NCBI GenBank assembly: GCA_003024175.1
Contig: MDYQ01000001.1
Span: forward strand, 248,001-312,000
Length of the DNA stretch: 64,000 nucleotides
Source: Planoprotostelium fungivorum
Lineage: Eukaryota; Evosea; Variosea; Cavosteliida; Cavosteliaceae
Direction of reading: 5' to 3'
Under the pieces are notes generated by a model that made no database searches, was not told where the DNA came from, and saw nothing but the letters and a program-made list of their open reading frames with translations. Position numbers and translations under genes: made by a program. Shown here piece after piece: positions 17,418-64,000 of the stretch (its first letter is position 1; the number at the start of each line of letters is the position of its first letter).

Positions 17418-17549
17418 GATCATCGAATAATAGACTTATTTCATATCACGGTTGCTATCATCTAGTCGAGTTTAGAAGAGCACGAAGCAGGTCCGCGATC
17501 ATCAGAATAGAAGATCAAGCAATATCGAATAAAACAGACTCAATACAAT

Positions 17550-41154: not shown

Positions 41155-44100
41155 TCAATCTCTTTCACTCTGTTCTTCTGAGGTATAGGCACGTTCATCC
41201 TCCTTCCCACGATTCTCATCGACTTTCTCTCTGCTGCCACTTCTTTCGTGCTGTTCCCTTTCAGTCGTGATCGTCTCAGGTGATGATGTAAGGAAGGCTC
41301 TTCACCATGACTGTATGACCTCTCTCCAACGTTGCACTGGCTCGCCGAGCGTATCTGCCTCTAAACAGCCCAAGATCTCTTCATAGATGACGCCGCAAGA
41401 GTAGCTGTCGATCGTGAATCATGCATCATGAGGAGAAGGTGATGCTCACATGTCTCCTTCGATCGTCAGCTGTCTGCTCTTCTTCACCTCTGGCGCCTGT
41501 TCGATGTCACTAGATGTCAAGAGATGTTAGTCTAGAGCAGAACTTACAAGATACTTTTCCATGTACTGAGGCAGCTGATCGATCGATTGACAGCCATAAG
41601 CTGAGATCTTGACGTGCATAGATGATGTCATGTACACTTTCTGTGGACACATTCTTCCGTGTATCACTCTGTTCTCGTGCAGATAGCTCATTCCTGCCGC
41701 GATCTCCTTCATTCTACAACTACGCTTCAGCTTCTTGGATTCAATCTATATCATTCCCTCACATGTTCTGAGCTTGTTCACCATCGCTGATCATCCCCTT
41801 CCTCATCACCTAACAGTCTTTCAGTCTCATGATCATCTGTCGCGATCGCAAAAGGCGCTGACGTTCATGGAATGAAAGATCATCAACACACGTGATCAAG
41901 AGTGTTGCCATCCATATAGTCTGTCACTAGGCACGTCATTCCTTCCTCTCTGTACATGCCGAGATACAGTAAGATGTTAGGATGATGCATGTCCTGTCCT
42001 CTCATTAGCCATCGCTTCTCCAGGAGATGACGTCATCATCCTTCACCTTCAACATGTTGGCTTCGATGATCAGCGTCTTTGTTCTCTCTCTGTCTCCTGA
42101 CTTCTTCACTGCCACTGCTGTCGTTCCTGACTTCTTGCCGAGATAGACAGTGCTCTGTCTGCCTCTTCCTATCTCTCTCTCGATCTGTACGTCCTACTCC
42201 ATCGTCAGTCTTCACACTTGATCATCTTTATCGCTCACGGTGTTCGATTCTAGAGGGATATCGGATGGATTAGAATAGATCGACTTCCTTCTCTTCTTAA
42301 TGATCACGGCGATGATCACGATGACTGTCACCGTTCACGTCCCTTTCAGACGGCAATGATCGAAAACTCACCGAGAATCACAGGAACGATTCCAGCTATG
42401 GCGATGAGATACAGCTTGTCGAATCCTCCCTCTTCGCGGTTGACTGGCGATCCCACATCTTCGATCGTCGGATTGACTATCACAGGAGGGTTGTATCTTC
42501 CGATGGTAAAGTTGGTCAGGTGATTGCACAGACAAGTGACTGTGTCCACTCCCAGCTCTGTGTCACATCCATCTTGACTCCATCCTCTCATCTTCTCTTC
42601 CCAGTATACACATACCATATCTGTCCTCCTGTGAGTTTCTATCGTGTAACGTTTCTGATTTCACCTGCTGTGACATTGGTGTTAGAGGGTAAATACATCG
42701 TGATCTTGATGATTCTCTCGTCTCCACTTACGTTGGCGTACGTACCATTTACGTACAAACTGAGTCCGACCGTATCACCCAATCTAATCGATCTTCATTA
42801 TTCTGATATCACACCATGACGTCATCTCACATCGTCCAATTGATGTCCCTCGGGAACACAGTGAACGGAATTCGACTCAGTATCACTGTTGCTCTCGTGC
42901 TGTTGTTCCCTCTCGACAGACTCTCCATGACAGAAGAAGGAATGGAGAAGCTAGTGGTCGCAGTTCCATTCAGTCTTCCTTCAATTGACGCGTTTCCGTT
43001 CTGAATCGTTCTTCAGTATTCGTATCGATTTCGAGATCATCACACAAACGATCATGATGTCTTCCACGATGAGATCACCTTTTGTACGATAGCGGCATAG
43101 ATGGACAAGCCGTCTGCACTCGTCCTCTCATAGACATCGGATGATATCAGTGCTTCTTGTGCTGCGATCTCGATCGTCTCGAAAATCTTATCGACAGTCA
43201 TCCCGCTGTTCATAGATAGGGATGCATCTAAGGGGCTCGTGTAGTTGATTGTGGTCAAGTTGAAGATATCTCCCGTCTCAATCCATTGTAGAGAGAGGTA
43301 GAGGAGAGAAGTGGGGACGTGTATGGGCACCGGGATGGATGTGGAGTAATTACCACCGCTGACGTTGACACACGAGAGTGAGACGGTGGAGGAATTGATG
43401 CAGAGAGAAGAGTTGGTGCCTGCGTTTGTTCCTGCTCGAGTGAGTATCATCGCGATGGGATCGGATCAGATTCCATGTGAAAGATCACCATTCACGAAGA
43501 TGATGGTGGAAGATTGAGCTCGGGAGAACAGACGAACCGTGGTGCGTTGTTTAGTGGGTGGTGGATAACTGAGAAGGACCGGGATGCGAGCGCTACACGT
43601 GTATAATAGCAGAGTGAGATTGGATCCGACACCCTTTGGTACGGTGACTAACACGTAAGAGCTGTAGAGCGCGATCCTGATGGCTACACCTTCGAGGGTG
43701 GCTGATGCTGACATAACAGAGAAGTTTCCGCTCACACGAATGACTTCTCCGTTGGTAGATGTGAGAGAGATGTGAGTCACTGAGATCATGGATGACCTCC
43801 ATATGAGAGCCTGAGTGCTCCGATAATATTCGAAGAGTACACCGTCGTCACTGAGGATCATCGCAGAGGATTGGCCAAACATGGAAGTGTTTAGATTATT
43901 GCAAGGATTAGCTGCCCACACGCTTTTACCCGCATCATCGCGATAGACGAAATTGGCATCTAACTTCTTCTCAGGACGAGATGAATCAGGTGACTCACCA
44001 CTTCCTTGTATAACAAGTCCATATTGTCTCGATACGTTGAGGGAGAGGTAGGTTGTCCATCTCGGTGTTGTTGGATCTAGATAATGAACGATCTGTAGCT

Positions 44101-44298
44101 GTTTGTTACTTGGTATCTGCGAAACTTCAGCAACTGATCATCTTTCAGACTGACCCCGAATTTCCATTGGCCATTAGAAGACACCAAGGTAGTATCCTTG
44201 AGGTACCCGGAGCTGCTGTTCAGAACCGTATTTCCTACAAAGAGGGTTTGGGCATAGACCAGTGCGGTGAGAATAAGAGTGATGAGCACTGTCTTCAT
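41155..44298 (-). CDS. GPS-motif receptor with cytoplasmic pseudokinase
   Basis: The minus-strand start MKTVLITLILTALVYAQTLF is a signal peptide. A long beta-rich, N-glycosylatable ectodomain follows (SVWAANPCNNLNTSMFG; SVSLSCVNVSGGNYSTSIPV; MTVDKIFETIEIAAQEALIS). A GPS motif follows at about 42620-42490: MCVYWEEKMRGWSQDGC then VTCLCNHLTNFTIG, with the HL/T cleavage triplet. Then comes one membrane span (LYLIAIAGIVPVILVIVIIA, stop-transfer KKRRK). The cytoplasmic kinase-like domain starts VQIEREIGRGRQSTVYLG with VAVKK kept, and HPNILLYLGM. However HRD is HGR, the Mg-binding Asn is Lys (CPQKVYM) and DFG is AYG, followed by KYLAPEV and DIYSCGVIYEEIL. The C-lobe is short. So this is a predicted self-cleaving receptor with a catalytically dead kinase. 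The end at 41155 relies on a tentative last splice. Confidence 0.75.
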
Positions 44299-44610
44299 CC
44301 TTCTCGGATGGCTTTCGTCTGATCATTGGAAGACGACAAAGTTCCTCAGCATTGTTCTTCTGGTGTCAAAAGACCCGTGGTATGGAATATGCCTTTCCAA
44401 CTTCTCAATCAACAAGACGAATTTGCTGTCCCAGGATCCGATCGAATTCAGGATTGTACCAAAGTGTGCTCTACCATAGTAGGCCGTCATCTTGAAAAAT
44501 TTGATGTCACTGTGAGAACCTGTCTAACATGATCATAGCACTCGTACATTGATCCTTCCTTTCGTATGTCGATTTGTGTGATAAAATGTCTCAAGTCGAG
44601 AAAGAAAAGA

Positions 44611-44683
44611 TGGAGACAGGGGGTATCGATCCCCCTACCCCTCGCATGCAAAGCGAGTGCTCTACCATATGAGCTATGCCCCC
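44611..44683 (-). tRNA. tRNA-Ala (TGC), second copy
   Basis: Reverse complement gives a complete cloverleaf with anticodon TGC and no intron. It is identical to 1894-1966 except for A instead of G in the D stem, which here gives a fully Watson-Crick GCTC/GAGC. The remainder of 44299-44783 shows nothing else. Confidence 0.95.
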
Positions 44684-44783
44684 GAGTGAAAGTGGCGAAC
44701 GGTGCGTGGATATGTATGGAATGACCATGGTAATATATATCGATATGCAAGTGTTCCTCGGTCGGGAACTATCTCATCTCTCT

Positions 44784-47700
44784 TTAACGACCCACTTTCA
44801 ATTTATTGTACTGTGCTTCCAACTGTGCGTACTTGTCCTTCCACTCTTGCAACTGCCACCTTCAGTCTCCTCCCTTCTCCTCCTTCTCACCTCCTTCTTC
44901 AGGGCGTCCTTCTCTGCGTTGCTGATCCTGAGCATGTCTTTGAGGATACTCGTGTGGGAGTCCACTCCCTGCTCTTGCGTCGTCGTTTTCTTCGGTGCAG
45001 AGACCACAGAGTTGGGCATCACCGACACCGACGCACTGTACGGCCGATTGACCGTCGGAGCTACGTCGGAGTTACGTCGGGGTTACGTCGGAGACTCACA
45101 TGAAGTGGAACCACCGGAGTCACTGTGAACGAGAGATCTCGATCCATCGACCAATGGCGTGGATGATCGTGTCGGTGGGGGAGGCACGCTGGGAGATTGA
45201 ATGAAGCTCGAATTCGAGCCGACTGAACCACTGCTCTTGACCAGCACTGAATCCATCAGAGGAGATATCGCATTGGCGGCGGCGACTGCGGCCGCCTCTG
45301 CCGCTTTCTTCGCCTTCTTGACGGAGTACAAGATCTTGATTTCCCTCAGATTCTCCACGGATTCTCCACGAATGATATCTCACGTCGGCCGTGGTGGGTT
45401 TCGATTCGAGGGCTTCCGGGTAATAAGGCGCCAGCATCTCTCGCAGTGACTTCCTGTGATCTTGCGATGCGTAGGCGGAGATGAGAGAGTGGTTCAGTAG
45501 CTCCGCGGCAGATTTTCTACCGCTGGGTTCTTTCACGCAAGCCTCGTCCACGAAGGAATGCAGAGATGGAGACCATTTCCCAGTGGGATCGTCTAATTTT
45601 GGCGCGGGTCCGGATACGATGAGGCCGATGGCCTAGCGTACATCAGTACACGTTGTCGACGTCGACACTCACCCTCAGCATGTTCTCCGAGGCGAACGGA
45701 ATTTTCCCTGTGGCCAATTCGATGACTGTGATACCAGTGCTCCATATGTCTGCTTTGAAATCGTACGAGTTACCTTCTATGACTTCTGGACTCATGTATA
45801 GAGCTGTGGGACGATCAGTCGCGTGGATTGAAGGTGGAGGTCACGTGTTCCGATGGTGGTGGCGGCTTTGGCCATGGTGTTGGAGAGTTGGGTGGATACA
45901 CCGAAATCGGCTGAAAGGGTTCAGGATCTACAACGTTGTAGAAGGATGATTGGTTCACCTAATTTGGCTTCTCCGGCGGCATTGAGAAGGATATTGGCTA
46001 AAATTAGGTCAATATCTCCTCTCCTCATCTACATCGATGTAGATTCTCATCTCGTCATTTCGAAATAATATAAATATGTTGATGACCTATTTACGTAGGA
46101 TATCACGGTGGATGATATCTTATTCACCTGGCTTGAGATCACGGTGAATGATACCAGAATCATGCAGATACATGAGACCATTGAGAACAAAGACCAACAG
46201 AGCCGCCAGCTGCCGCTCCGTCATCAGTCGATTGTCCTTATTCAATTTTTTAAAGATATCCTGTCGTCTTCAGCGATTCCTTCATCTACAACGCGCACGA
46301 ACCTGCATGGAACCGCAACCACAAAACTCCATCAGAATCTGTCGAACGTCAGTGAGATTTCACGTTACGTATGGAGGTACGCACCCACAGACGTGACTCT
46401 CTCGTGAAACAACCAAGGTAAGAGACGATGTTGGTGTCCTTACATCTCTTCAAAACGGTGATCTCCTTCTCAATGTCCTCCGGTTTGTCTCCAGCGGGTA
46501 CCTGCTTGATGGCTAACACATAATTCGTCTCCTTCTGCAGAGCTCGATACACCGACCCGTACGCTCTGATTTTCGTTGAGTTTTCATCCGAATTTCTCGT
46601 ATCGCCCGCGGGCGTCGTAGTATGATATCGTGATGACGTGTCACCCTTGTCCTATGCATTCGGCCAGATCGAATGCGTCTCCAGAATTCATCTCCCATTG
46701 ATAATCTGTGGTCACGTGGACCACTCTTCTCATATGAGATGGTCCTGAGATCTCTAGATCTCCACCCATTCTTTCCGCTGGGAACGAGTCAATCTACGAC
46801 GTTGTAGATGGGACTCACATTTGCTTTTGTGTTTCCTCTCTTCCTTCTTCATCTTTCGGTCCGTCTTTTTTACCTCGGCTGGTGGTGTTGAGTTTTCATC
46901 GAATTTCTCACGAATTCTCACCCCTCATTCTCTTGGGTAGTCCGAATTCGTCCTGCATCCGTCAGTTTTCGTTCGATTTTCTTCGACTTTTCACCTTCGC
47001 TGCATCTGTGATATCATACAAGTTCTTTCCCTCGTCTGGATTGGCCGATCTCTCTAGTAAGAGTCTGATGATGTCTCGGCTCTGTGATATCGTAGCATAA
47101 TACAATGGTGTCTCGTCAAGGCTAAGAGGTGTGAATATCAACAAAAATCCGCGGAAAACTCCTCACTTGTTCGTGACGTTCAGTGGTACATTGTTCTCGA
47201 GGAGAAAGCGGGCAAATTGTGTGTGGCCTAGTAATGCGGCTGACCACATCAGTATGTGAAGTCTCGCAGAAAACTCACCGAAATGCAGTGGAGTATCCCC
47301 ACTGTTATTCCCCTTCTCCAAGAGAGCTGATCCTCCTGCAGTCTGTCAGTACCATACACTCATCTACAGCGATGTAGACTCACCCCTCTTGGCGAGAGTG
47401 CTCAATATCTGCGCGTCGATGTCGTTGGGCAGATAAGCGAGATAATGCATGAGAGTCCAATTGTTGTTGTCGACGTTAGATAAGAATGTAGACAGTGGTG
47501 GGTCGTTCGTGGAGGGTGCCCCCGGTGGTTTCAGTGTGGTCACCTTAGATAATCTGAAATTTCGCGTGCTATTCGCCGAATCGTCCGTCGTTGTTTTCAG
47601 TAGAGTGTCCATCACCTATCACATCCGTGTCAATTCTGACGTCAGACAAGCTTCAGCTCTCCACTTATCAACAGTGAAAATATTCGCCAGAGAAGGGGAT

Positions 47701-48838
47701 GTGATGACACGCGAACAGAAGGTGTGATTCGGCGAAAATATATTCGATATAAGATGAGAATCGTTCACCTCGAAGGTGGAGAGAGTGGCAGCGTGCATGA
47801 AGGCCGTTCGTCCGTCACCATCTCGAAGAGAAGCACCGTCGTTATTCGATTTACAGAACATGGAGACCGAGCTGGGCTTATTCGATCTGACCGACCGAAA
47901 AAGCGCGGGAAATTTGACGTCTTTGTACGGTTCAATTTTCGTTCGAATTTCTGTACGATCACCTCCCAGTAGCTCGTTGATCTCCGCCTTATTTGTTCTC
48001 TTACCCAAATCCAGTGCGGTCTCGCCCTTGTTGTTCAATGCGTATTTGTTGGCTCCATATTCTAATAGCATGCGTGCGATCTCAGTGCTACCGAAACCTG
48101 CGGCATAGTGGAGAGCTGTTTCTTTGTTTCTGACATAAATTGAGCGATGCAGATGATGGATTGTGATATGGACATCACGTGATGATGGATTAGAATGACT
48201 TACGAGTTTCTCATATCTGGCTTGGATCCATTTTCCAAGAGAAATTTGACGATGGCTTTGTTCCCTCGCATTGCGGCGATGTGAAGAGGATATTCGTGAT
48301 TCTTTTTCGTCGGCAGGTGAATGAAAGGTGCTCTCTCTAACATCTGCAAGAGGATCTATCTGCGGGTGAATACATTCGATAGACAAAATGCATCTGATGA
48401 CTTACGGCGACGAGAAACGGTTCCTCGGCTGGTGATAGATTCTGTCGAACGAGATAATGGAATCCATTCGAACCATCTTCTGTCTGTGCCGTGACGTCCA
48501 CAGGTGTTTCTCTTAAGATATAACCCAACATTTCGAGGGAGAAGCTCGATGAATTACAAGCACAATGAAAGGGTGTCCAACCTTTACAGAACATAAGAAT
48601 ATTTGTCTCATATTCCTCTTACCATTGTCGTCTGGTTCATTGATGTTTCCCTTCTTCTTCATCAGTTTCTTCACGAGATCCAGATTTCCATCGGTACATG
48701 CCCCATGCAATAGAGTCTGATATCTTGAGTCGACCGACTTATGGATACCATCACCTGTCCTCCGTCGTCCTTCATGGAGTTCTTCAAAGACTTATTCCTG
48801 ATCGAGCCAAATCGATCCGAAGGGTATGGACTTGCCAT
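44784..48838 (-). CDS. Ankyrin-CRIB-STE20 protein kinase
   Basis: Minus-strand exons start [21 protein letters not shown] long ankyrin array follows ([93 protein letters not shown]). A linker ([28 protein letters not shown]) leads to a CRIB motif [13 protein letters not shown] (about 46750-46710), which binds GTP-loaded Rac/Cdc42. The kinase domain then reads [71 protein letters not shown] and [17 protein letters not shown]. The kinase is intact and STE20-like, closer to MST/Hippo in the activation segment. A C-terminal coiled coil ([20 protein letters not shown]) ends at TAA 44784-44786. I read Ank and kinase as one gene because exons join in phase without a stop across 46900-46980. Confidence 0.78.
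45927..45942. repeat. Intronic perfect palindrome, TCTACAAC type
   Basis: Fourth perfect copy, in the intron just before the DFG exon of the STE20 kinase. Near copies are at 46793-46808 (one mismatch) and palindromic relatives at 46028-46043 and 47363-47378, all in introns of the same gene. Confidence 0.9.
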
Positions 48839-49245
48839 CACAACAACTAACGCCTATCCGTTGTTGCTCCGAGTGACAGCTGTGTCCCGTAACTTTTGTT
48901 CCTGTCAGCCTAATCTACAACCTACATGGATTGACAATATTTCACGGAGGCGTCTCTGCCTATGCACACAGTATCGCTGGAGCATAGAGGATACTCGTCC
49001 TCTCCTGTACATGAAAGATACTTCTACTCTCTCCATTGACATAGGAAGTCATCAGTGAAAAAGAGATGAGGTGATGAAAGGATTCAGAGCGCTTCTCTCG
49101 AGTAATAAAGTACGACAGCGTCTATCCCGAGGTTGTCACGATAAAGTGTCGGGGGTTCGCCTCATTCTTTGAATAAAACTGATATCACACCGACCACATG
49201 AACATCTTAAGAGACGATCGATTTCTTCAGTCTCATTGAATTTAT
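48839..49245. other. Intergenic, 407 bases
   Basis: Between the start of the Ank-CRIB kinase gene and the 3' end of the metacaspase gene, both on minus. No gene recognised. Confidence 0.4.
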
Positions 49246-50797
49246 TTAAATAGAGAAGGGCTGGTTCATATCCATCTCCCTTCCAGTGGACAGCTGCGGG
49301 ATCTGTCTGAACTTTCCTTGCATGATCTCACGGGTCGTCTTGAGAAGGTCCGCGTAAGAGATACGTCTGCCTTGCCCCTTCGAAAGAGCCTCCATGAGAG
49401 AGAATGACATGGCACCCGTTGGAAGTCCGTTCATGTTGGCATCCATCGACGTCTGATCATCGCGGCAGCCGGAAAACATGACGATGTCGGCCACGTTGTT
49501 TCTCTCAATACCCTCAATGTTACGAGTGTGTTTACCGCTCTTTTTCTTAGAATAGAGGTTGATGCCTTCGATGACGGCACGACCGATGGAGAGGGAGTTG
49601 CCTGATGAGATGAGTCCCATATGGATGGATTAAAAGGAAATAAATACCTCCGAAGAAAGCTCCGGCCAGACCACCGATCATGTTCATGGGCTTGGCGGGA
49701 CCAGATGACTGGGTTCTACCTCCTGCATCGTAGACGACTGGTAAGTCTAAAGCAGTTCCAGAGTGGCATGAGTCGAAGATGACCGTGAGGCGAACACCTG
49801 GGGCCAGAGGTTTGACGAGAATGTTGTGGAGTTCCTGAGATGGATCAACATGGCGCCATCACGATGTCTTCTCTTACATCGTCTACGATCTGTCCGGCTT
49901 GATTGTAATCCACGGGGAAGATGGTCTCATCGTATCCATCATCTTCGTCACCATCTACACCTCGTTAGAGTCAGATAAAGATGCAGATGTTCGATCGATT
50001 ATCTAATGGAGAAACCCACTGGTGTCGGGTGTCTGTCCTCCGTGTCCAGAATAGTGGAGGAAAAGAGAGTCGCCGCTCACGGCTCCTTGGACTAGCCATT
50101 GCATGGCGGCAAGCATGTTCCTCTTGGTGGGTCTTCGCTTGTTGTCTGTCTGGTCGTCGGTGAGAACGACCATGGTGTTGGGTGATTCTACGAAACCGTT
50201 CGCCTGTTCATGTACATTAGACACCATCCCAATGTGACGTCACGATGATAAAGTGTCTCTCATTCACCTTCAGAAACTCTTTCATGCGGACGACGTCGTT
50301 GATGCAACCTCTGAGGGCTGCATTCGTACCAGTGTAGTTGATACCGATCAGAAGAGCCTTCTTTCTTCCATTCAACTGTGCAAATCGTGCTCCAGTGCCG
50401 CCGTCTACAGGTTGAGCGCCTGTGAAGCCTGGTTCTGGTGGAGGACCTCCGGGTTGGGGTGCATCATACTGAGGAGCACCACCATACTGAGGAGCGCCAC
50501 CATACTGAGGGGCACCACCGTATTGGGGTGGCATTCCACCCTGAGGTGGAAATTGAGGAGGAGCACCGTATGCCTGCTGTGGAGGAGGCATGCCGTAGCC
50601 CGGAGGAGGAGCACCATATGGTTGAGCTGGTTGTCCGTAAGGTTGAGCTGGTGGTGCTCCGTAACCTCCTTGAGCGTAGGGGTCGTAGCCTGGCATGGGA
50701 GCTCCGTATCCTTCTCTGAGATCAGATGTTGTGAAATCGAGGAAGGATGGAAATGATGGTACGAACATGCAGATCAATTACCTGGATATCCGTTCAT
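49246..50797 (-). CDS. Type I metacaspase
   Basis: Cysteine protease of the caspase fold that cleaves after Arg/Lys. Minus-strand start MNGYPG, then a Pro/Gln/Gly/Tyr-rich prodomain of about 120 residues with repeats ([35 protein letters not shown]). The catalytic domain follows: [50 protein letters not shown] with the catalytic His, and [15 protein letters not shown] with the catalytic Cys. The small subunit region is [20 protein letters not shown]. The length (about 400 residues) and the Pro-rich prodomain are typical of type I enzymes in fungi and protists. It is probably calcium-activated and involved in stress or encystment. The last codons FSI-TAA run into TAAATAAA. Confidence 0.93.
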
Positions 50798-51194
50798 GTT
50801 CGAATCGTCTTGATGATGTTGTTTGCGTGTGAAGATGATGGTTTGGTGTTTGAGAGGTACCTTGCAAACTCGTAGAAAAGTCGTCTCAGTTTCAAACTCG
50901 CTTTTACAATAAAATCAGATTCCGACTACCACGGTTCGGCTGAACCACATCATTCACACCAGAATTCACACAACAAAACACGAACAGCCATGACCTCTCA
51001 GATTCCATGAATTGTTTCTTCATTGATACGTGTTATTGTTATCGCATTGGTTTAAGTTTCCTATTGGTTTACCACAGGGATGGTCACCTACCACCACGTC
51101 AACATCACGATGCAGACCACGATGTTCAACGCACCTCTCCCCAGTTGACCATAGACGATCCATCATAGTCAAATCCTCCAATACCTGTCGTCTG
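50798..51194. other. Intergenic, 397 bases
   Basis: Upstream of the metacaspase and downstream of the first ferritin-like gene. No gene is seen; a CAATAAAATC word lies at about 50910. Confidence 0.4.
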
Positions 51195-54100
51195 TCACAC
51201 CCATTCGAATGTAAAGTCATCACCTCCACGGAACAGCCATCTCTTGCTGTCATCAGGTCTCACGTGAATGTTCTCCTGATATCGTGGTCAAAAGACAATC
51301 GAGAGAGTGTAGCTCACTCGGTTCAGTTCAGAGAAGAAGGGGAGATCGGTGGACTTGTGGTTCTCGTTGTAGAACAAGTGTCCTCGTACGGAGTGGTCGA
51401 AATATCCTGTGAATCGCTGTGGATGTGAGATGAGAGGATGAAGTGATGTCGAACCTGGTTGGTGGTGGCTGATCTCGTGGGACAGTTGAACTGCCAGATT
51501 CTGCGTGCCTGGTGAGATGGTTTCGATGATGACGATGAAGATGTGATGATCGTGTGACAATGAAGAGATGATCCACACCTCCACATGGTGCTGATGAGTT
51601 CATCGGGAGTGTGTGTTCCCGTCTTAGCTGGCAGCATCTCTTCGAAGAATTTCTTGTTCACGGAGGCTTGCAGTTTCGCCACCCACTGGTTCGTCTGTCT
51701 ATGATCAATCTCCATCCATTTACAAGTCTCCTCACCATCTCCTGTGCCTTCTTGCCATCCGTGTCCCCGTTCGGTAATTTAGGAGCGTGAGTCAAAAGCT
51801 CTCGGTCCGCTTGGCTGAGACTCTCTAGCACCCAATCTGGCATGTTCTATCTCATCATCAGATGACCCTCGATGATCATCACCATCGTCATCACCTGCGA
51901 GTCAGAATCACCGAATCCGTTGCGACACTGTCTAGAGGTGAAGGCTCTCTGCTGGGGCGTCATGTCCATGAACTTTCGATTGTCCGCAGTGCCTGATCGA
52001 ATGAGTGGCGAGTTGTAGACGTGCAGTCACCTCTGCCGAACCATGTGTCAGCCCTCCTGAAGTTCAAGTTGAAATTCTCGAAGGGAGTGGCATCTCCCCA
52101 CACCATGTGGTTATCTCCGATCATGTAAGCTCGTTCGTCTGAATCTGGTTTATTCAGAGAAGGAGTGATCTGCACGTGTCAGCTCGATAGAAGAAGGTCA
52201 CATTTCACATCTTTGAGGTCGTCTGGCTTCAATTCGAGAGGCTGTTTTCCATCCTCGTGGTACGTGCAGCTGAGGATCTTCATGCCGGGTTCGGTCTGCC
52301 GCGTCATCAGGGCAGTCAATGACGTCATCACTCACCAGGGTACCTGGCCGCACGACAAATCCCTCTCCTTGTTCCTTCGAACGATAGACCATGCTTCTGT
52401 CGAAACTGAAGAGAGTTATTTTTAGATGAGGATTGTATCATACAGTTGAGCGTCTGACGCGTAAGCTCGAGTGCTTCCGGTGACACCGATCTCATCTGCA
52501 GATGGATCTGGATCGGTAGAGAGTAACGCATTGCACCTTCCCACGTATCTACAACGATCAGATTCTGTGACGATGATGTCTCTGCGTGGAATCGAATCTT
52601 ACCTCACGACGATGTAACGGTCTGCCTTCTCCACTTCGCAGGATTTCTCTTCGTATTTCTCATCCTCCTCCTGTTTCATATTTCAATCGATTTTCATCTC
52701 AATCTCCTCACCATGTGGGGAGCAGCAGATTCACCGAATCCTCCCTTAAGGCGGAACGTCACTTGAGCTCGCGTGTCTCTCAGCTGTCTCAGTATGGTCA
52801 ATCGACTCTTCATCATGGAATGATAGACTTTGTTCTCCTTCTCTGGGTGTTGCAGGTGAGGCGTGCAGCTGATGTCGACTCGATCCTGTCGCAGTGTGAG
52901 TGTACCGTATGTCGACGTCGACATTCACCAGTAGGTGTAGGCCCTCTTCGGCCCAGTGAGCGGCGCCTTCGAGCAGAGTGAGGATGGCATCGTTGATTTC
53001 GTCTGAATCGACGATGTCGATTTCCTTCTTGTGAACATTCAGGACCAATTCCAAAGCTTTCTTGTGTGCAGGCGACGATGGCAATTCACAGAAATCGAAG
53101 AACTTCCACTTTTCATCTGCATGGTAGAGTGGGATGGTCAACTGGTACACGATCAGAATTGGCGGGAGATTTGAAATTCGAATGTAGTACCTCCAACATG
53201 GGACGAATGCACATGGACATGAGAGGCCAGGTTACGATGGATTCCACAGTCTTCCTCATCTGCTTCTCTTTCATCTGTATCATTCAGTCGACGAGATTCC
53301 ATTTCACCTCGTAAATTCGGTGCAGCCACACGAGCATACCCAGGTAACAAGCGTTGAACCACTTGACTCCCTCACTCACCCACTCTTTCACCCTCTCCTG
53401 CTCTTCTCCACTTTTACCTGAAATTTCGTCGGAATCTCCCCACCGACATCTATCATCTCTCACTCGACAGCAAGATCTGGGGTCTGAAGGCGGTGTACCT
53501 CTTTCCCTTCTGATCGAGAGGTAGATCCTCCAGCTCGTTTTTCATGAGGATGAAACGGTACAAGTGAGCATCTCTCAGCATCCAAGAGTCGTACCACTCG
53601 TCGTCCTTTGAAGGCTCCTGATAAGTAGAAAGACGTCGATGGGCCTCGATCAGCTTAGCGATCGGAACGTCGGCGGGGTCGACGATATCTTTGCCTTTCT
53701 TCACTCCCAACTGATAGAGGTGATGAGATGATGAGATGAGATCGTGGAGCACCTTCTCCAGAAAGGCTTCAATTCGAACGATGAATGCGTCGTCTAATCC
53801 TTCTCCTTCCGATTTGATCGTGTCGATAACTCCTTTCACCTTCACAATGTGAGTCCATCTACAACCAACCACGTCTTACCTTGTCAAACGAATCGAGCTT
53901 GACTGTTACCCTGGTGAAATTACGGTTGCCAGGGGTAGTCTGTTTGTTGACAATACCCTCTTGGTTCAGTACATTGTCCGTACTGTCGTCGTTCATCGAC
54001 TCCACCAATTCTCCATTGTCGTCGAACTCTCTGTCGGACAATTTCTGCCAATGATCCGATATTCTTCCGTACAAATCTCCGATACTGTGGAAGCCTCCCT

Positions 54101-54908
54101 CGATGGGGGCGGGGTGGACCGGTCCCTGTAACAGACGAGGGTAGAGAATTCTCGTGGAAAATTAGACTCGAACGTAAGGTCGTACGTACTTCCTGACTTG
54201 TTTGCGCAGCTCCTCCAGTTTCTCAGTTGGAACATCGTAACTGCTGAGAATGCCGGCTATGAAGAGTTCCCTCTCTGTATTGCGGAATAAGATCTTGGAT
54301 TTGTTCCTGATGATGTCATGAGGGTGTGATGAGATGGACTCACAGGAACTCGTGGAATTCCTTTTGAACGGGGACGGTCGATTCGTAGAGGATGAAATCG
54401 ATCGCGGCTTCGATGGTGAGATCACGCATTCCGACGCTGACCTGAATGATGCGTCATAAGATGAGGTGAGTGTGGATCGATCACCTCCCTGACGCCCCCT
54501 TTGTCGGTATAAGGTACCCAGTTCTTAAAGTAAAACTGGTGATTGTGATTTCTCTCGGGTAATCCAAAGTAGGGTTGAGATCTCGCGCTGGTGAGCAGAA
54601 GTTGGACACCGTGAAGGTGAGTCATCTCCTCCTTTGCAACATCAAGGAGCGTCGCCTTCCATCTGCATATGGTTTCATACGGTGTATTATCATTCGGAAT
54701 CATCACACCTCCTGGCTCGCTCGAAGAATAGGGAGCGATAGTTTGGGTTCGTGTTGTCTGGAAAATCCCATTCGTCAGGGAGACTCTTGACCGAGCACGC
54801 TGCAAACAGATAGGCATTGAGAAGACAGTGCTCCAATTGAGAGCCCGTTCGAAGGTCCTGAATCAGTTGTTTCAGGATCTCACTGTGTTCCTCCGCCTTG
54901 GGATTCAT
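51195..54908 (-). CDS. Large protein with VioB-type ferritin-like domain (paralogue A)
   Basis: Minus-strand start MNPKAEEHSEILKQLIQDLR. The N-terminal di-iron-like domain has QLEHCLLNAYLFAACSVKSL and DVAKEEMTHLHGVQLLLTSA with the E-E-x-x-H motif, then PYFGLPERN. Further along is SIGDLYGRISDHW and, after an intron, VKGVIDTIKSEGEGLDDAFI, the EGEG element typical of the ferritin-like domain of iminophenylpyruvate dimer synthases (VioB/RebD). A C-terminal half of several hundred residues (DNHMVWGDATPFENFNLNF; TQNLAVQLSHEISHHQP; SKRWLFRGGDDFTFEWV) is of unknown fold but has a counterpart in paralogue B. In bacteria such proteins couple oxidised tryptophan imines. The biochemical role here is inference only. 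About 15 introns; the exon chain is partly tentative. Confidence 0.68.
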
Positions 54909-55172
54909 GCTGCTGTTGTTCCTTCTCTGTCTATTTTTTTATGAAACCACGACTGTAAGACCGTTCAGTTTAACAGGGGATGATGTGACAGCCTGGAAGC
55001 AATGAATCACCCTGACTTACCGTGTAAGCAGCACGTGAATTTACGCAAATCTGTCGGCTCACACGCGAAGTTGTGAAGGTCACGTGATTGTTTCTCAGTA
55101 ACCTCCCAATGGAGCGTTCCAATTCGCGGGGCTCAATCATCACTTTTAACCGAACACCAAAACAGCAGCAAC
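54909..55172. promoter_or_regulatory. Divergent promoter of the paralogue pair
   Basis: 264 bases separate the start codons of two related, oppositely transcribed genes. A shared promoter would allow co-expression. It includes CACGTGAATT and CACGTGATTG words (about 55030 and 55081) spaced about 50 bases apart. Confidence 0.5.
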
Positions 55173-58100
55173 ATGCGACACCCGCAACTGAAACTGGGCG
55201 TGAGTCCGTCAGAAGATGATCAAGTAGTCCGCTGACTCATTCGTTCAGGTCAGATGGACAGGACACAAGAGAGAACAACCGAGCACTCCAAAAGAGATGG
55301 AAGCGGTAGACGCGTACCTCAAGACGGCGTCGAGTCTGGAACATGCCCTTCTCAACTCGTACCTGATTGCGGCCTGCTCTCTCAAATGCACTCCCGAAGA
55401 GTTCAAGGATCAACCACACCCAGCAGCAGCTTTTGAGACCGTCAGAGCCTGGAAGACAGACATCATAACGGTGATCTAATCATCCGACACACCAAGATAT
55501 GGTACATTTCATCTCTCATCTGAACGCTACGCAGGTTGCCAAAGAGGAGATGATCCACCTCCACTACGTCCAAGTCTTACGACGAGGTGTTCAGCTACCA
55601 CCTTATTTTGGGCTGCCCAATCGAGATGAGCGAGGATCCGTCGAATTTGAAAAATGGACACCCAAATGGCTGCCATCCGATGCACCGAAGAACACACACG
55701 TGGCGGTAGAACAGACCTGCTTTTCGGCGAAGAACATCGAGCGCTTTGTAGCCTACGAGTCCACCGGCGAGTTTCAGGAGGCCATGATGACCAAAGAAGA
55801 ACACCAACAGCTGTTGGACTTCTCGATTCGTTACTTCCAATTCGAGGTGACGATTATGTCCCATCACATTCTGAATGACCTGATTATCAGACGGCACTCC
55901 GCATCGCCTTCGCCACCGATCCGAAACCACCCCAATTGACGAAAGAAGATGCCACCGGAGACATCGACCCCGAAATCATCCAGCGTGCCATCTCCATCTC
56001 GACCAGTTACCCCATGCACTATTCCACTCCAGGTCTTCTCAAGAACGACGGCCCCATCAAGCCTTTCGGTTCCATCGCAGCCCTCTACGACACGCTCGAA
56101 GAGACCTTCCATGAGGACATGTTCAAAGAGGACAACAGCGACCTCTTAACGGAGATCGCTCCCAACACGAACGCATCGAGAGGATTAGACACGAGCATCT
56201 TCTATGTGGCATCTGACAAGGCCGAGGAGAGAGACCAAGCTGCGGCGGCGAGAGCAGCGGAGAATTGGACGAGAAAGATGACAGACAAACAATCGGTGGG
56301 TGTCGACACGTGTCGACACAGAGTCAGCTGATGACGTCACGCAGGTACATCAGATTATCCAAGAGATCAAAGAAGAGGGTGAAGGATTCTCCGGTTGGCT
56401 ACAATGCTGCAAGGATTTTGCGGAGAAGTTAGTTCCAGACTATCTCAGGAAGGATTCGGACGAGAAGACCGTACAAGCCTACTGGCAGCAGATCTTCAGA
56501 GTGAGTGGTGCGTTGTAGATGGGACACTCATTATCATCAGACCAAGAGACTCATTGACGTCGACATCCACAGGGCCAAAGAGAAGGAGAAGGAAGAGAAG
56601 GAGAAAGAGAAGGAGAGAGAGAAGAAGAGACAGAGGATGATTGAAGAGAAAGCTGAACAGCTCAAACGAGAGGGAAACTTTGGATATCACGTGATGGAAG
56701 AGCCGCGAGAGGAAAAGAAGGAGGAAGAAGTACCGAGGGGTAGTGTCGGTACGTACCGTGTGATACGTATGTACGTACGTACTGACCGTACCAGCTGCCT
56801 TGAGGAGATTTAAGACGGCCCACTTGTACAGGTTCTTTGTCATGATGGGAGGAAACCAACAGTGGACCTTGTGGAACAATCAAATCCGGGCGAAATCTCA
56901 ATCTACAACTCCCCCCGCCCCTTTCATTCCCAGGAGAACTTTCAAAGAAATCCAGGAGAATTCTCCGGTGATGCTGATCTCCTGTCCAGTGAATCTAAAT
57001 AAAGATCAGGCGAAACAGCTTCAGAAGGAGGTGGCAGAATGGTTCAACGTGTGCTATTACAGCATCATCGTATGGCTGGCCAGAATCTACGAGGGAAAAG
57101 CAGACTGGGAGACAGACAGAACTCGTCGACAGTCCATCGAGCAGGTACCGCACACGATTCGATGTGACGTCAGATGACGTCATACAGTTGGCCACTTGGC
57201 CCTTGATGTCCATGTGCATCCGTCCATTCCTGGAATTGGCCAGTTTCTTCACCGAGGACACTCCTTCAGCGAACGGCTGGGGTCGGTTCTTCAGAACCGA
57301 TAAGAACAATTACGTCTTCCCTAGTGAACACATCATCCCAGAGGCCTACAAGTTGCTTCTGCAAGACTTATCGAAGCCGTGAGTCCATTCATCCGTTGAA
57401 ACTGGATTGACTCGATGTAGAGAGCAAGACGAGACGATCTTCAGCATCCTGACGAAAGCTTCTGATTGGGCGAGAACATGGCTCGAAACTTCACAGAAGG
57501 AGTCTGCCTTCTCTCACCTCGAATCCCATCAAGTCAAGATCGTGCAGAACAGACTCTACTGCCTCATCAACCTCAAGGACGTACACAAGCAGTTTCAATT
57601 CAGAATGGATGGTTTCTACTCGAGCGACATCAAGGGAGAGGCACCAAAGGATAACACGTACCGCGAGCAGGTGGTCACGGGACACAACAAGCAAGATCCA
57701 AAGTACAACTACATCCCCGTACAGGTGATGATGTCATGATGATGATGAGATGATGATGGATGACATTCGATCAGAATGGCATCGACGATGAATGGAAGGA
57801 TGTGGAGAAGGTTCTCAGAGTTCGATTCTGCGGTCGATCGAATATCTTCCTCGCGACGGATCCAGATCACAACACGGACGAGGCCGGTGTGACGGGCACC
57901 GCTCGCATTCACTTTTCGGACAAGAGAGACGACCCTGAGGTACATCATCTACACACACATACAGACATCTACACACACAAACATCTATATGGATAGCGAT
58001 CGTCTACATACAGACTCATTTCTGAATCACACGCAGCATCCATGGCATATGCTCAATCGTGAGATTGTCACCAATCCGAATGTGAAAGAGGGAAAGCACA

Positions 58101-59353
58101 TCATGCAGAGAGCACCTCAAGGCCAAGTCGGTCCAAAGAACACCGACCCCGGCACCGTAGAGCCTGTGGGTGTCAGAGTAAGTACCCTACGCACGCTCAC
58201 TCCCGCTGACGTAATCTCCCCGCAGGTCGTTTCCATCGATGTATTCGAGACGAAAGGTCAACCGAAGGTATCATTAGATCTTCCACATCCAGAGAAAGCT
58301 CCCATAGCCGGTCTGACAAATCTGGGCGAGCCAGTCTACCAATTGAATGGAGACAACGACACACTTGGAGTCTTGAAGGACTTGACGGTCGATTTGGATC
58401 GCATTTCGGGAGAGAGCAAGTACCACGTGCCTAATTTCTTCGGGCTGAATCACATGGCGTGGTGGGACGGAGAGCCGATCGACCACTTTTACATCTCTCT
58501 CACTTCGAAGAAGAATGGAGACCTCCGTGTGGCCAGAATGGTGCATAATCCTTCTCTCAAAATCCATCATCTGACTATCCTCATCATCATCGATCTCATC
58601 ATCATCATCGTCTACACGGACATCATCAGGTGTTGACACAGAGACAGGTCAAGAGAGGAACGGAAGAATTATTGGACGTGCCGCCCGTGACCAGAGCATG
58701 GTCAGGCAGGGGACCCATATTCATCGATGCCGTTCCCAACAGCTACGGCACTTACCCTCCTTGGGTTCTGTCCGAACTATCAGCGAGAGACATGCAATTG
58801 CAGAAGGGCAAAGATAGTGAGACAGCCCTCTTATTTGAAGCAAGAGCCCTTCGAATGTGCAAGGAGTGAGTTCATCATCATCATCGTGGCATCATCATTG
58901 TGGCATCATCATCGTGGCATCATCTGAGTGATTTATAGGATCGACGAGATTGCGAAGAAGAAAGAACAGACTGCAGAGGATGAGGCACAGAAGGTCTCGT
59001 TAGTCGAGAGGTGTTTCCGCGTCAGGTGATGATGTTCATGATTCCACACGATCGTGACGTCGAACAAGGTACCCCCACACCATTTCACCCATGGTAGCTC
59101 AGACTCGATTCCCATACGTACACACCGTATCTGAGCCTGTGTCAGAGCAAGACAGAAAGGACACCTTCTTGACCCATCTCATCAAGGGTGAGATGCCACC
59201 TCGAGAATGATGATTGAAAGATGAACAGATGAGATCGATTACGAGAAACCGTGGTTGACTGCGTATGACTGTGGTATCATGGACTATGATGCTCTGACCA
59301 TGCTGTTCAACGGAGAGATCTACATTCCAATCAAGAGAAACGGATCCGTTTAG
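55173..59353 (+). CDS. Large protein with VioB-type ferritin-like domain (paralogue B)
   Basis: MRHPQLKLG splices in frame (intron about 55200-55248) to VRWTGHKREQPSTPKEMEAV. The ferritin-like domain follows: SLEHALLNSYLIAACSLK, VAKEEMIHLHYVQVLRRGVQ (E-E-x-x-H), LPPYFGLPNRDERG, FGSIAALYDTLEETFHED, then IIQEIKEEGEGFSGWLQCC. Unlike paralogue A it has a Lys/Glu-rich helix of about 45 residues (AKEKEKEEKEKEKEREKK) near 56570-56690, probably a coiled coil. The C-terminal half includes NHMAWWDGEPIDHFYISLTS, matching DNHMVWGDATPFENF in paralogue A, and ends TAYDCGIMDYDALTMLFNGE, IYIPIKRNGSV at TAG 59351. Introns contain GTCGAC, TACGTA and TGACGTCA palindromes. The family's known reaction is oxidative dimerisation, but the substrate here is unknown. 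Confidence 0.7.
56300..56319. repeat. 20-base perfect intronic palindrome
   Basis: GTGTCGACAC twice in a row; because the unit is itself palindromic the block is both a tandem and an inverted repeat. It is in an intron of paralogue B, followed 12 bases later by TGACGTCA (56332-56339). Confidence 0.92.
58872..58927. repeat. Intronic ATCATCATCGTGGC minisatellite
   Basis: Three imperfect copies of a 16-17-base unit built from CATCATCATCGTGG in an intron of paralogue B. A second CAT-rich intron lies at about 58556-58629. Confidence 0.75.
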
Positions 59354-59587
59354 CTCGATATGTATTATTATAAAGAGAATTCGTAGAATCATGAAACGCT
59401 GAGATCAAATGAGAACCGATGGAAGATCGCCGATCATTATGAGACAAGGTCATTAAGCGATCGTTTGCGACTCGGGTATCTCCTTTGTTGAAAATTCGCG
59501 TGGAACTATCAATTGGGGTTAAGTAGAATTCTTGAAGGGTTGTCATACAGCGGGCCTGGGCCAAACGGCAGAGAACTCTTGATCATC

Positions 59588-62500
59588 ATGCCCGGTCGAT
59601 TAGCTCTCCTCGCTATTCTATGGTTGACGGCACTAGTCCATTCTTTCGAGATATCACCACGCCAGGAACTCATAGATCTGTACAAGAGCACGAATGGAGA
59701 TGATTGGTATGAACATACAGGATGGGATGCACCAGATGGAGACGTGTGTGATTTCTACGGAGTGACTTGTGACTCTATGGGTCAAGTGGTTTCACTGGTG
59801 TTGAGAGACAATCGCTTAGAGGGAACACTACCCGAAGGATTCGGCCAGAGACTCCTGTCTCTGGAGACTCTGATTCTCACTGGAAACGAAGGTGAGATGA
59901 TCATCTGAATCATTAAACGGTATCGCTAAGGAGAACAGGGCTCAGCGGATCTCTTCCTCGTTCTCTCAATAAGTTGGTCCATCTTGACCTTCTCGACCTC
60001 TCCTCCAACCACTTCAGCGGATCCATCCCCGATCTCTCTGCTTTGATCCATCTTCGCACGGTATTTCTAATCATGAGATACAGACTCTGATCACCCTCAG
60101 CTCGATCTCAGTGGTAACCTCTACACCAAGTACCCCACCTTGGAGTGCCCCAACATCAACATCGAATGCGTCTGCCCTCCCCTTCGCTTCATCATCTCCA
60201 CTCGTTCTGAAGATCTCGTCGTTCTCACTGGTCGAGGTTGGGGGTGAGACTTTTCATCCTCTAACTTTGATAAACTCCCTCATCTTCACAGAGATGCACC
60301 CGTCGTGACAATCGATGGACAGATGATGCCCATCCACTCCATCAACCAAACGATGATCACAATCAAGGACACAACCTCGAAGGGAAGCGTGCTGAGAGTC
60401 ACCTCTGGCTGTGGAAAGCACTGGGCCGCGGTGATCGACGGGTCCAACACCATCTTGGAAGAGGGACAGGACGGACACAAGAGAGCCTATGGGGGACGTC
60501 CGAGAGGCAACGGTAACGGAAACCAAGGCAGCGGTTACGGTAATCAAAGCAGTGGTAACCAAGGCAACGGTAACCAAGGGACTGGTAACCAGAGTGGAAA
60601 CGGAGGCAGCAGCAGCAACCAGGGCGGTAACAATATTAATGGCGGGAACAATAATCAAGGAGGGAAGGGTAACCAAGGCGGGAATGGAGGCGGCAACAGC
60701 ACTTCAAGTACCACCAGTAGTGAAAGTAGCACCTCAAGTAGCACCAGTAGTGAGAATAGCATCCCAAGTAGCTCCGACTACCAAGAAGGAGACAGCAACC
60801 AGGGCGGTAACAATGGCAAGGGAGGCGGCAGTGACCACGGTGGTTACAGCAGCAGTAGTCAAGGCGGGAATAATGGAACAGGAAATGGTAACAACGGTGG
60901 GAATAATGGGCAAGGAGGTAACGGCAGCAACGGCGGAAACAATGGTACAGGAGGCTATGGCAACAACGCCGGGAATAATGACCAAGGAGGTAACAACGCC
61001 GGGAACAACGGCAATGGTGGGAATAACGGGCAAGGGGGCAACGGCAACAACGGCGGGAACAATGGTACAGGAGGCAACGGCTATGGTGGGAACAACAGCA
61101 ATGACGGAAACAACGGAAATGGCGGGAATAATGGAAATGGCGGGAATAATGGAAACGGCGGGAATAATGGCAACGGCGGGAATAACGGCCATGGTGGAAA
61201 CAATGGCAACGGCGGGAATAACGATCAAGGAGGGAACCAAGGAGGAAACGGCACCCAGAGCAGCAGCGGAAACAAAAATGGAAACGGCGGCGACAACGGC
61301 GACCATGGTAACGGTGGAAACAGTGGTCAAGGTGACAACGGAAATCACGGGGGAAACAGTGATCAAGGCCGCAATACCACACAAGGCGAAGACGGTAACA
61401 GCAACGGAGGATACAACGGTCAAGGAGGCTACCACGGTGGAAGTGGCAACGGCGGCGGCAGTGGTCAAGATAACAGCGGTAACCATGGGAGCAGCAATAA
61501 CGGCGGGAACGGGGGTAACAGCAACAAGGGCGGGAACAGTAACAATGGCGGGAATAGTAACAACGGAGGGGAAGGTCACCACGGTGGAAATTCCTCTAGT
61601 TCATCAGATAAGACACCAGCTTCCACCTTCACGAGTACAACATCCGTGGATTGTAACAGTTACGCCTGGAATACGTCTACAGTGAATTCCAATCTACTCG
61701 AGAGATGACTCAGTTTGTTCAGGTCCAAGAGGTACCACGAGTGTACGCCCAACAGTGTCCTTCGTATTTCGACATCTTGGTCTTGCGAATCGCATCTGCG
61801 AACCTGCAGAAGGGTGAAAATTTCACCGTAGAATCTGCGAACGTCTCCGTCGCCGCCAATAAGGTTCACCTACAACTCGCCATTTAATACTGATAAAATT
61901 TCAGGTCAAGGGACAGCAGCAAGTTCTTCTCGTCTTCCAGAACAACACGGCCAGCGGTTTTATTCCTTTAGATGTTACGAGCAGCCTGCCGAACAACAGC
62001 ATCGTCGTATTGTCACTCTACACTTTCAATCCTTTTATTTCCTCGGGTCAAGACAGTTACACGTGTGATTTCGATGAAATTTCGTCTCTTAATGAAGAGT
62101 AGATACACCAGTGTAGTGTCGCTCTCGGTCCTCGATGGAAATTCCACAGAAATTTCAGTCTACAACACGTCATCTTCCATCGAAATCGGAATGAACTACA
62201 ACGCTGTAGATTCGGAGGATCTCACTTGTGTGTGGTGGGACAAGACGGTGTCGTCATGGAAACCAGACGGCTGCCAGACTGATGTCACTAGCAAGCCCGT
62301 AAAATGTCTCTGCAACCATTTGACCAGCTTCTCCCTGCAAATTGCACAGAAGAACAGCGTAGTCGGCGATACACCATCGCAAGCCTCCACATTTCCCGGG
62401 AAATGTGAGGGAGAATTCGTGGGACAGACGTAACGTACGCAGGGATCGGCATCGGGATCGGAGGTTTCATCTTCGCCGCGGTGGTCGTCACGGTGATCAT

Positions 62501-63647
62501 CCTCATCATCATGAAGAGGAGAGGCAAGAAGATCGAATTTCACGAGATCGATCTGGTCGAATCGTCGTCCCACTCCATTCCCACCAACCAGATTCATCTG
62601 GCAAGTGAGTGACGTTTCCCACCGATTCTCCACCCTAATCTCATCGTTCAGGTGAACACCTGTCATCTAGATGTAAGATGGCCAAATATCAGGTGAGTTG
62701 TAATCACGTGATATAAACTGATAAAATCAAGTTAGTCGATGTCGTATTGACCAAGAAGGAAGCCGATGGACAGAGTGACCTCCTCCTTCAGGTGGGTCTC
62801 GTAGAGAGTGTCATCTACAACGGGTCTGAACCGCATCCAGCGAATCAGGCACGTCAACATCGCACAATATTTGGGATGCTGGATCAATACCATCGGAGAA
62901 GCTTACCACGTGACCAGTTACGTACCCGGTGATCATCTCTCTCAGTGGATCAAATTAGGAGGGTACACGGATGATATGGCCAGACAGACGTGCGTAACCA
63001 CCACCTCTATATATGACATCATCTGACATCTTACGCAGAGTGCTGCAGCTGGCCAATGTGATGGCTCACTTGGTTCAGCAGGGGGTCAGAGATATCGATC
63101 TCACTGCGGAGAAGATCATCATGCAGCCTGACGAGAGAGGTTCTTATTCAGTCAAGCTGTGGGATTTTCGCTCGGTGTCCAATCTGCCTCCTCTGTACAC
63201 GGTGGGAACAGATGACGTCATCGTACGTCATGCTGACGGCTGTAGGCTCCAGAGAAGAAGAGCGGGGGAGTGGTCACAGAGGCATCGTTAGTGTGGGCGT
63301 TCGGAATCTTGGCATTACAGATTGCGGAGAGGAGATTGTATTTGAGAGGTGGGTGCCTCATGTCTTCGCAGGCTGATGATGCGACAGAGTCGACTTACAT
63401 TAGATACACGGACGGTGATGAATCGACGATCACAAGTATTGAATCATTCATCGCCGTGAGGTGAGAAGAAGATGAGAAGATGTGCTGTTGATCTGGTTAC
63501 AGCTTGCAGAAGAGTCCGAAGAGCAGAGCTTCGTTCATGGAGTTGTGTCAGAGGGGAAAGGAATGGTCGATCAGACCGAAACATGTATCATCAGACTTTG
63601 ATGATGACTTTGACGAAGAGCGTCAGTATAATACCAAAATGGCTTAA
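59588..63647 (+). CDS. LRR / Asn-Gly stalk / GPS receptor pseudokinase
   Basis: MPGRLALLAILWLTALVHSF is a signal peptide. A plant-like LRR N-cap follows (ELIDLYKSTNGDDWYEHTGW; CDFYGVTCDSMGQVVSL), then leucine-rich repeats (LDLLDLSSNHFSGSIPDLSA). An Asn/Gly/Gln/Ser-rich stalk of about 370 residues (60495-61610) is next, then a beta-rich region (YFDILVLRIASANLQKGENF) and a GPS motif at about 62208-62340: LTCVWWDKTVSSWKPDGC then VKCLCNHLTSFSLQI, with the HL/T triplet. One membrane span (GIGIGGFIFAAVVVTVIILI) ends in MKRRGKK. The cytoplasmic domain is kinase-like but degenerate: HVNIAQYLGCW, GVRDIDLTAEKIIM (Mg-binding Asn replaced by Lys), LWDFRSV in place of DFG, WAFGILALQIAE and SRASFMELC. It is probably a surface receptor or adhesion molecule with a non-catalytic signalling end. 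Confidence 0.78.
60495..61610 (+). repeat. Coding repeat: Asn/Gly-rich (NNGNGG) stalk
   Basis: About 370 residues of GN, NGG, GNQ and SSS words. A regular core of NNGNGG hexapeptides lies at about 61096-61230, and a Ser/Thr-rich break (STTSSESSTSSSTSSE) at about 60700-60770. The DNA repeats in 18-base steps, so slippage should change its length. Long open frames on the other strand here are by-products of the composition. Confidence 0.88.
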
Positions 63648-63782: not shown

Positions 63783-64000
63783 ATGGAGGTATGGAGGAGA
63801 GGATGGCTCTCATCGATCTTCGCCTTGATGTCGATCCGAATGGCTGTCTCTCTGCCAACACAAGCACAACAGACGCAAGACCTCAACGATCTGTATACCA
63901 GCGCTGGAGGTACTATCCATCTTTGGTCTGTCACGCCTGATCGAGAATAGGAAGCTCCTGGTCAGGTAACAATGGGAACGGCTGGGGTGGCACCAATGCC
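63783..64000 (+). CDS. Start of a second LRR-type receptor (3' partial)
   Basis: MEVWRRGWLSSIFALMSIRM then AVSLPTQAQQ is a signal peptide. QDLNDLYTSAGG follows, and after a 60-base intron (about 63907-63969) GNNGNGWGGTNA, running off the window. The pattern L-x-x-L-Y-x-x-x-G-G-N-N-G-N-x-W resembles the LRR N-cap of the gene just upstream (LIDLYKSTNGDDW), so this is probably a tandem paralogue. An upstream in-frame ATG at 63714 is possible, but the signal peptide favours 63783. Confidence 0.6.

Follow-up and report, generated by a model that had tools for sequence, protein, structure and literature searches.

Predicted receptors that join a GPS motif and one membrane span to a mostly non-catalytic kinase domain in Planoprotostelium fungivorum

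HER3, CCK4 and many LRR receptor kinases of plants are receptor pseudokinases: each has an ectodomain, a single membrane span and a kinase fold that lacks the catalytic residues. In the excerpted text of PMC12716839, choanoflagellates are credited with GAIN-bearing adhesion G-protein-coupled receptors (GPCRs) and protists with fusions of a seven-transmembrane (7TM) receptor to a kinase. A single-transmembrane (1TM) form of Cirl and polycystin-1 are mentioned in an excerpt of PMC13197933, and CCK4 is named as a pseudokinase in an excerpt of PMC8662651. Here we describe two genes of Planoprotostelium fungivorum in which a GPS motif is followed by one membrane span and a kinase-like domain, together with the family to which they belong. 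Both genes lie in a window of 64,000 nucleotides (contig MDYQ01000001.1, here C1, positions 248001-312000), and coordinates refer to this window unless a contig is named. The genome assembly searched comprises 36.9 Mb in 471 contigs.

Layout and extent of the receptor family

Judged by sequence, genes 1 and 2 belong to a large family of receptor pseudokinases with a single span. The GPS profile PF01825 gives 150 scored matches in the genome (of 176 candidates, redundant contigs included), and our detailed sample consists of all 47 matches on contigs C1-C109, two of them in the window. Kinase exons lie behind the GPS in 45 of the 47 loci, on the same strand and approximately 0.3-1.5 kb from the GPS start. 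The cleavage triad HLT is present in 46 of the 47, including both genes, and the remaining locus has an intron within the motif. A 21-residue hydrophobic span follows within 330 nt of the GPS in 43 (plain hydropathy test, introns ignored). Ten further loci were chosen for the lack of a kinase match in earlier searches; in all ten the GPS is followed by kinase fragments, which at one locus are cut by a contig end. By coordinates alone, 85 of the 150 GPS matches are followed on their own strand, at a distance of up to 1.6 kb, by a match to one of three family kinase queries; this test recovers 34 of the 47 sampled loci and so misses many. The original prediction had proposed the fusion of a GPS to one span and a dead kinase for two receptors; it is present in many more genes than these, with a kinase domain that is mostly non-catalytic. 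We regard it as somewhat probable that the family consists of GAIN-type cleaved receptors with a pseudokinase scaffold and a phosphotyrosine docking tail.

Redundancy among some contigs means that the family has fewer than 150 distinct genes. Gene 2 is present a second time on contig C196, with match scores equal to those of C1 (from 310 kb) in every exon, and C120 gives the same match scores as C5; the assembly therefore contains redundant or allelic contigs. In the two sampled loci that lack kinase exons (C99:259892 and C36:60513), the GPS and membrane span are followed by a stop at the expected kinase start. Their short tails, EGIELSEKSPQ and EGIELAEKSAQ, respectively, could mark decoys, co-receptors or truncated copies. 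The ectodomains are varied across the family and include LRR, TIG, beta-helix-like and other modules. Two GPS-TM-pseudokinase genes (C47:116688 and C47:124932) have a repeat-rich upstream region, and a stretch of the former matches the Chlamydia PMP repeat in Pfam (E 1.1e-4).

All gene models are predictions of a purpose-written splice-aware gene finder trained on DNA of this genome; of the 1345 introns that it predicts, 1123 measure 30-59 nt. Because the finder makes false introns inside open exons, key joins were checked against paralogues. The signal peptides of genes 1 and 2 were judged by eye.

The spliced model of gene 1 encodes approximately 811 residues, with approximately 15 introns, and contains a signal-peptide-like start, an ectodomain, the GPS, a single membrane span and the kinase-like domain. 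The gene had been predicted to end at 41155, and its stop codon is instead found at 41126-41124. Both domains expected from the original reading are found by Pfam in the 811-residue model: GPS with E 5.1e-12 and Pkinase with E 3.3e-30 (105.8 bits against the curated cut-off of 31.7). A 47-nt exon at 41809-41763 resolves a difficult join within the kinase domain, and the matching exon of the paralogue L038 is also 47 nt as counted from the sequence. The exon joins of gene 1 are open. A predicted intron at 43842-43780 was rejected because the paralogues L015 and L038 read through there. The features of gene 1 are as follows:

41124-44298, minus strand: gene 1 as a whole (spliced model and Pfam)
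42502-42615, minus strand: GPS with CNHLTNF, in which cleavage between L and T is expected (PF01825 E 2.9e-12, 52.8 bits against a cut-off of 22.5, the best among the 150 listed)
42285-42420, minus strand: membrane span and basic stop-transfer segment KKRRK, with an internal intron at 42371-42325 (sequence and model; passes the 21-residue hydropathy test)
41170-42200, minus strand: kinase-like domain with introns (Pkinase E 3.3e-30)
41629-41661, minus strand: catalytic-loop equivalent HGRMCPQKVYM, with Asp replaced by Arg and Asn by Lys (sequence and profile alignment)
41593-41601, minus strand: DFG equivalent AYG, reading SAYG (sequence and profile alignment)
41127-41150, minus strand: tail DTYGTVSV with a C-terminal Tyr (sequence)

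A bulb-lectin assignment for gene 1 was considered and dropped, as gene 1 has no such Pfam match at E 5 and the match of L038 has E 0.11. Two tRNA-Ala(TGC) genes lie in the window, at 1894-1966 (plus strand) and 44611-44683 (minus strand), the latter just upstream of gene 1.

The predicted model of gene 2 has a signal-peptide-like start, LRRs, a TIG-like stretch, a Gly/Asn-rich stretch, the GPS, a single span and a degenerate pseudokinase. Entered without the Gly/Asn-rich stretch, the spliced model likewise matches both Pfam domains, GPS with E 8.1e-11 and Pkinase with E 6.2e-10 (39.3 bits, against the same cut-off as for gene 1); the TIG-like stretch falls below cut-off with E 0.024. The PF01825 scores of the two genes rule out a chance motif as the source of the GPS. 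Predicted introns at 62235-62291, 62493-62531, 63040-63081 and 63085-63126 were discarded, since they would interrupt the open exons of the GPS, TM and kinase. The low-complexity stretch, at 60455-61600 on the plus strand, is long and rich in Gly, Asn, Gln and Ser, and other members have Ser/Thr-rich stretches at that place. The features of gene 2, and the family member that follows it, are:

59588-63647, plus strand: gene 2 as a whole (sequence, spliced model and Pfam)
62224-62337, plus strand: GPS with CNHLTSF (PF01825 E 4.8e-11, 48.9 bits against the cut-off of 22.5)
62443-62530, plus strand: membrane span and MKRRGKK (sequence and model; passes the hydropathy test)
62700-63545, plus strand: kinase-like domain with introns (Pkinase E 6.2e-10)
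63085-63123, plus strand: catalytic-loop equivalent VRDIDLTAEKIIM, with Asp kept and Asn replaced by Lys (sequence and profile alignment)
63163-63171, plus strand: DFG equivalent DFR (sequence and profile alignment)
63612-63644, plus strand: tail DEERQYNTKMA with a C-terminal Tyr (predicted model)
63840-64000, plus strand: start of a third family member, which continues beyond the window to C1:315496 (gene 2 kinase query, model and Pfam GPS)

This third gene, suspected earlier from position 63783, is real and begins at about 63840. Its model has a Pfam GPS match (E 3.6e-11) and no Pfam kinase match at E 0.01; its kinase region was found by the gene 2 kinase query (E 1.5e-31) and also matches the family kinase profile, which itself drew on 31 of the models later scored with it. 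Independent Pfam tests on spliced models were made for genes 1 and 2 and four other loci.

Residue loss and descent of the kinase-like domain

The kinase-like domains of the family keep the residues of the nucleotide pocket and have largely lost those of catalysis. Among the readable positions in 45 loci, the beta-3 Lys is kept in 36 of 41, the alpha-C Glu in 36 of 40 and the HRD His in 36 of 44; the catalytic Asp is found in 3 of 44, the Mg-binding Asn in 7 of 44 and the DFG Asp in 9 of 44. The last three of these residues occur together in two of 43 loci (C33:10946 and C109:175681). By this loss of residues, most family kinase domains are pseudokinases. The two members compared with the PDB, L023 and L038, have their best matches there in the tyrosine kinases Src, Abl and EGFR, with PAK close behind for L038.

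In a profile alignment, the positions of the catalytic Asp, the Asn and the DFG Asp are occupied in gene 1 by Arg, Lys and Ala and in gene 2 by Asp (RDID), Lys and Asp. The Lys in place of the Mg-binding Asn, proposed for both genes, is confirmed in HGRMCPQKVYM and VRDIDLTAEKIIM, and the loop quoted for gene 2 is present in the sequence as RDIDLTAEKIIM, with DFR. The proposed absence of DFG from both genes holds for gene 1, which has AYG; in gene 2 the Gly is changed to Arg while the Asp of DFR is kept. The gene 2 N-lobe is unreadable at the beta-3 Lys and alpha-C Glu positions. Since gene 2 retains the HRD-position Asp and the DFR Asp, its loss of function would rest on the changes of Asn to Lys and Gly to Arg and on the degraded N-lobe. 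Elsewhere in the window, a kinase-like model without a GPS (17543-18870, minus strand) reads IIHRNINSFNIML (HRN) and LSDFAMS and therefore also looks like a pseudokinase.

Common descent of the GPS-TM-kinase architecture is supported by shared introns, which recur across the family near kinase profile positions 55 and 102. Gene 1 has introns at 53/54 and between 88 and 103, and gene 2 has one at 104/105; two window kinases without a GPS read through position 102, one of them also through 55 (fragments 57-136 and 49-132). Common descent of the dead state itself had been suggested from the Lys shared by the two genes, and on this point the tree disagrees. In a FastTree phylogeny built from 45 family kinases with two controls from the window, gene 1 is one of seven members of its clade (support 0.98) and gene 2 one of six (1.00); the clade of gene 2 joins C75, C42 and C79, all of which keep Asn, at support 0.88. 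Because the two genes lie in different clades and the neighbours of gene 2 keep Asn, the change to Lys most likely arose twice and is probably convergent.

The proposed mechanism and its alternatives

The family C termini carry a recurrent tyrosine motif. In 21 of 25 family tails, compared with 2 of 28 other gene models from the same DNA, a Tyr among the final 16 residues has an acidic residue one to four positions ahead of it, a count that takes the 25 single-exon tails (stop reached without an intron) of the 45 loci and ignores relatedness. Examples are FENVYQLSSS, RDAYGVVEI and DPYSQVNMME. Genes 1 and 2, which stand outside the count, end in ETDTYGTVSV and DEERQYNTKMA. The genome has 79 SH2 matches, counted exon by exon and so not strictly comparable with the 48 SH2 proteins of Acanthamoeba and 18 of Physarum given in excerpts of PMC4053784 and PMC4758236.

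In the mechanism that we propose, the varied ectodomain would bind a partner, and the GPS, in a GAIN-type domain, would cut the chain at HL/T during maturation to leave two fragments that stay associated. Binding or pulling would then shift or strip the outer fragment, so that the membrane fragment clusters or changes shape. Most of the kinase-like domains would not phosphorylate; with the Lys-Glu pair of the nucleotide pocket kept, they may act as scaffolds or allosteric partners. An active tyrosine kinase, which may be one of the few family members whose site is intact, would phosphorylate the Tyr near the C terminus in trans, and the phosphorylated residue would then recruit SH2 proteins.

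The GPS itself is present in the family, and a GAIN fold upstream of it is likely. A profile of eleven GAIN-plus-GPS regions matches 24 PDB sequences at E 1, of which 23 are adhesion GPCRs, and the best match is ADGRG1 (E 5e-14, columns 55-189). Several results weigh against the proposed mechanism. Once the GPS is cut off, the same alignment retrieves no GAIN protein at E 10, so that the GAIN domain anticipated upstream of the motif is partly supported. The GPS exon of gene 2, modelled by AlphaFold from a single sequence, gives a poor structure (pLDDT, the predicted local distance difference test, 55); the top two Foldseek matches of this structure are GAIN chains of BAI3, with E values of only 0.015 and 0.042. 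In addition, gene 2 retains two catalytic Asp residues, and four of the 25 tails, among them that of C109, the most intact kinase, have no Tyr among their final 12 residues.

We consider it unlikely that the GPS is an uncleaved structural module and that the kinase-like domain binds partners directly. Some GPS-bearing adhesion GPCRs are not cleaved, and the failure of the GAIN alignment without the GPS fits such a module; yet HLT in 46 of 47 loci is beyond what structure alone would need, and the GPS cysteines and tryptophan are invariant in the 11-sequence alignment. We think it quite unlikely that an altered active site keeps the kinase domains catalytically active, which would make these proteins ordinary receptor kinases with unusual chemistry. 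The retained Lys and Glu, the two Asp residues of gene 2, the complete set of Lys, Asp, Asn and Asp in C33 and C109, and HGDLCAAN with DFS in C149 would all suit such activity. The catalytic Asp, however, is replaced in the great majority of loci (by R, A, Q, I, N and others), and no alternative base is conserved family-wide. Thirteen added loci gave 12 readable loops, with the catalytic Asp in two (C149 and C394, the latter with HCDVRARN and EFG); in the three chosen for a Pfam kinase match behind the GPS (L049-L051) it is found in two, and in the other ten it is found in none of nine readable loops. The few control kinase fragments without a GPS that have a readable HRD loop in the same DNA show HxD..N in three of three, and the further window model at 17543-18870 reads HRN.

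Decay of duplicated arrays into mostly pseudogenes is very improbable, although the lost catalytic residues, the tandem arrays, the stops at C99:259892 and C36:60513 and a stop within the C61 GPS match are what it would produce. The ratio of nonsynonymous to synonymous change (omega) over the kinase domain is 0.21-0.42 in the 13 pairs with synonymous divergence (dS) below 0.7 among the 30 most similar pairs, all 13 being from the C58/C66 and C3 groups and measured at profile-matched open frames, which favours low values. Lys, Glu and the tail Tyr are also retained. Plain pseudogenes are rejected on these omega values, and selection on the kinase-like domain, as originally predicted, is upheld for close paralogues. 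Gene 1 and C70:22552 differ by a nonsynonymous divergence of 0.27 and a dS of 0.84, and the dS of gene 2 is saturated. That the GPS-TM and kinase exons are separate adjoining genes is hardly credible and was rejected: the gene finder split genes 1 and 2 in some runs, but order, strand and short spacing are alike in 45 of 47 loci, the joins of gene 1 are open, and the coordinate test finds a kinase match ahead of the GPS on the same strand in none of the 150 cases (three lie downstream on the opposite strand).

Comparison with known receptor systems

Most work on GAIN-type cleavage concerns multi-span proteins that follow the joint. In this family, which has very many copies, the joint is followed by a single span and a kinase fold. 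If the pseudokinase receptors proposed here are cleaved, GAIN would be a portable release joint with no need for a seven-helix bundle or G proteins. More tentatively, and with some doubt, the family may be a lineage-specific recognition system of dozens to more than 100 self-cleaving receptors, in which GAIN-type cleavage gates pseudokinases that signal only via a C-terminal phosphotyrosine and share a few intact family kinases. Such a system would be an independently built counterpart of the animal immune receptors that have no enzyme and borrow one.

Like the family, adhesion GPCRs have a large modular ectodomain ahead of a GPS that belongs to the same Pfam family and has HL/T, and 23 of the 24 PDB sequences matched by our profile are adhesion GPCRs. 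Seven helices follow their GPS, in contrast to the one span and kinase exons in both of our models. Genome searches with the seven-helix profile PF00002 and with PF16489, each run without a positive control, gave no match. Polycystin-1 and the single-pass Cirl variant resemble the family in placing GAIN/GPS outside a standard adhesion GPCR, and neither is known to carry a kinase-like domain.

The 7TM-kinase fusions of choanoflagellates, oomycetes and amoebozoans (GPCR-TKL/K and GPCR-TK) are, like the family, protist receptors with a C-terminal kinase domain; they have seven spans, and the GPS-1TM-kinase form is unmentioned in the excerpted text of PMC12716839. The main text of PMC10445921, on amoebozoan GPCRs, nowhere mentions GPS. 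Titles and abstract openings among the matches listed from open-licence literature joining GPS/GAIN and kinase describe no GPS-1TM-kinase protein.

The family shares its ectodomain, one span and kinase fold with the receptor pseudokinases HER3, CCK4 and the plant LRR kinases. Those receptors are not known to carry a GPS. In the family, which is large, the dead state covers most members, and dozens of receptor pseudokinases share their layout with a few intact relatives. The family can therefore show repeated loss of catalysis in receptors that stay under selection.

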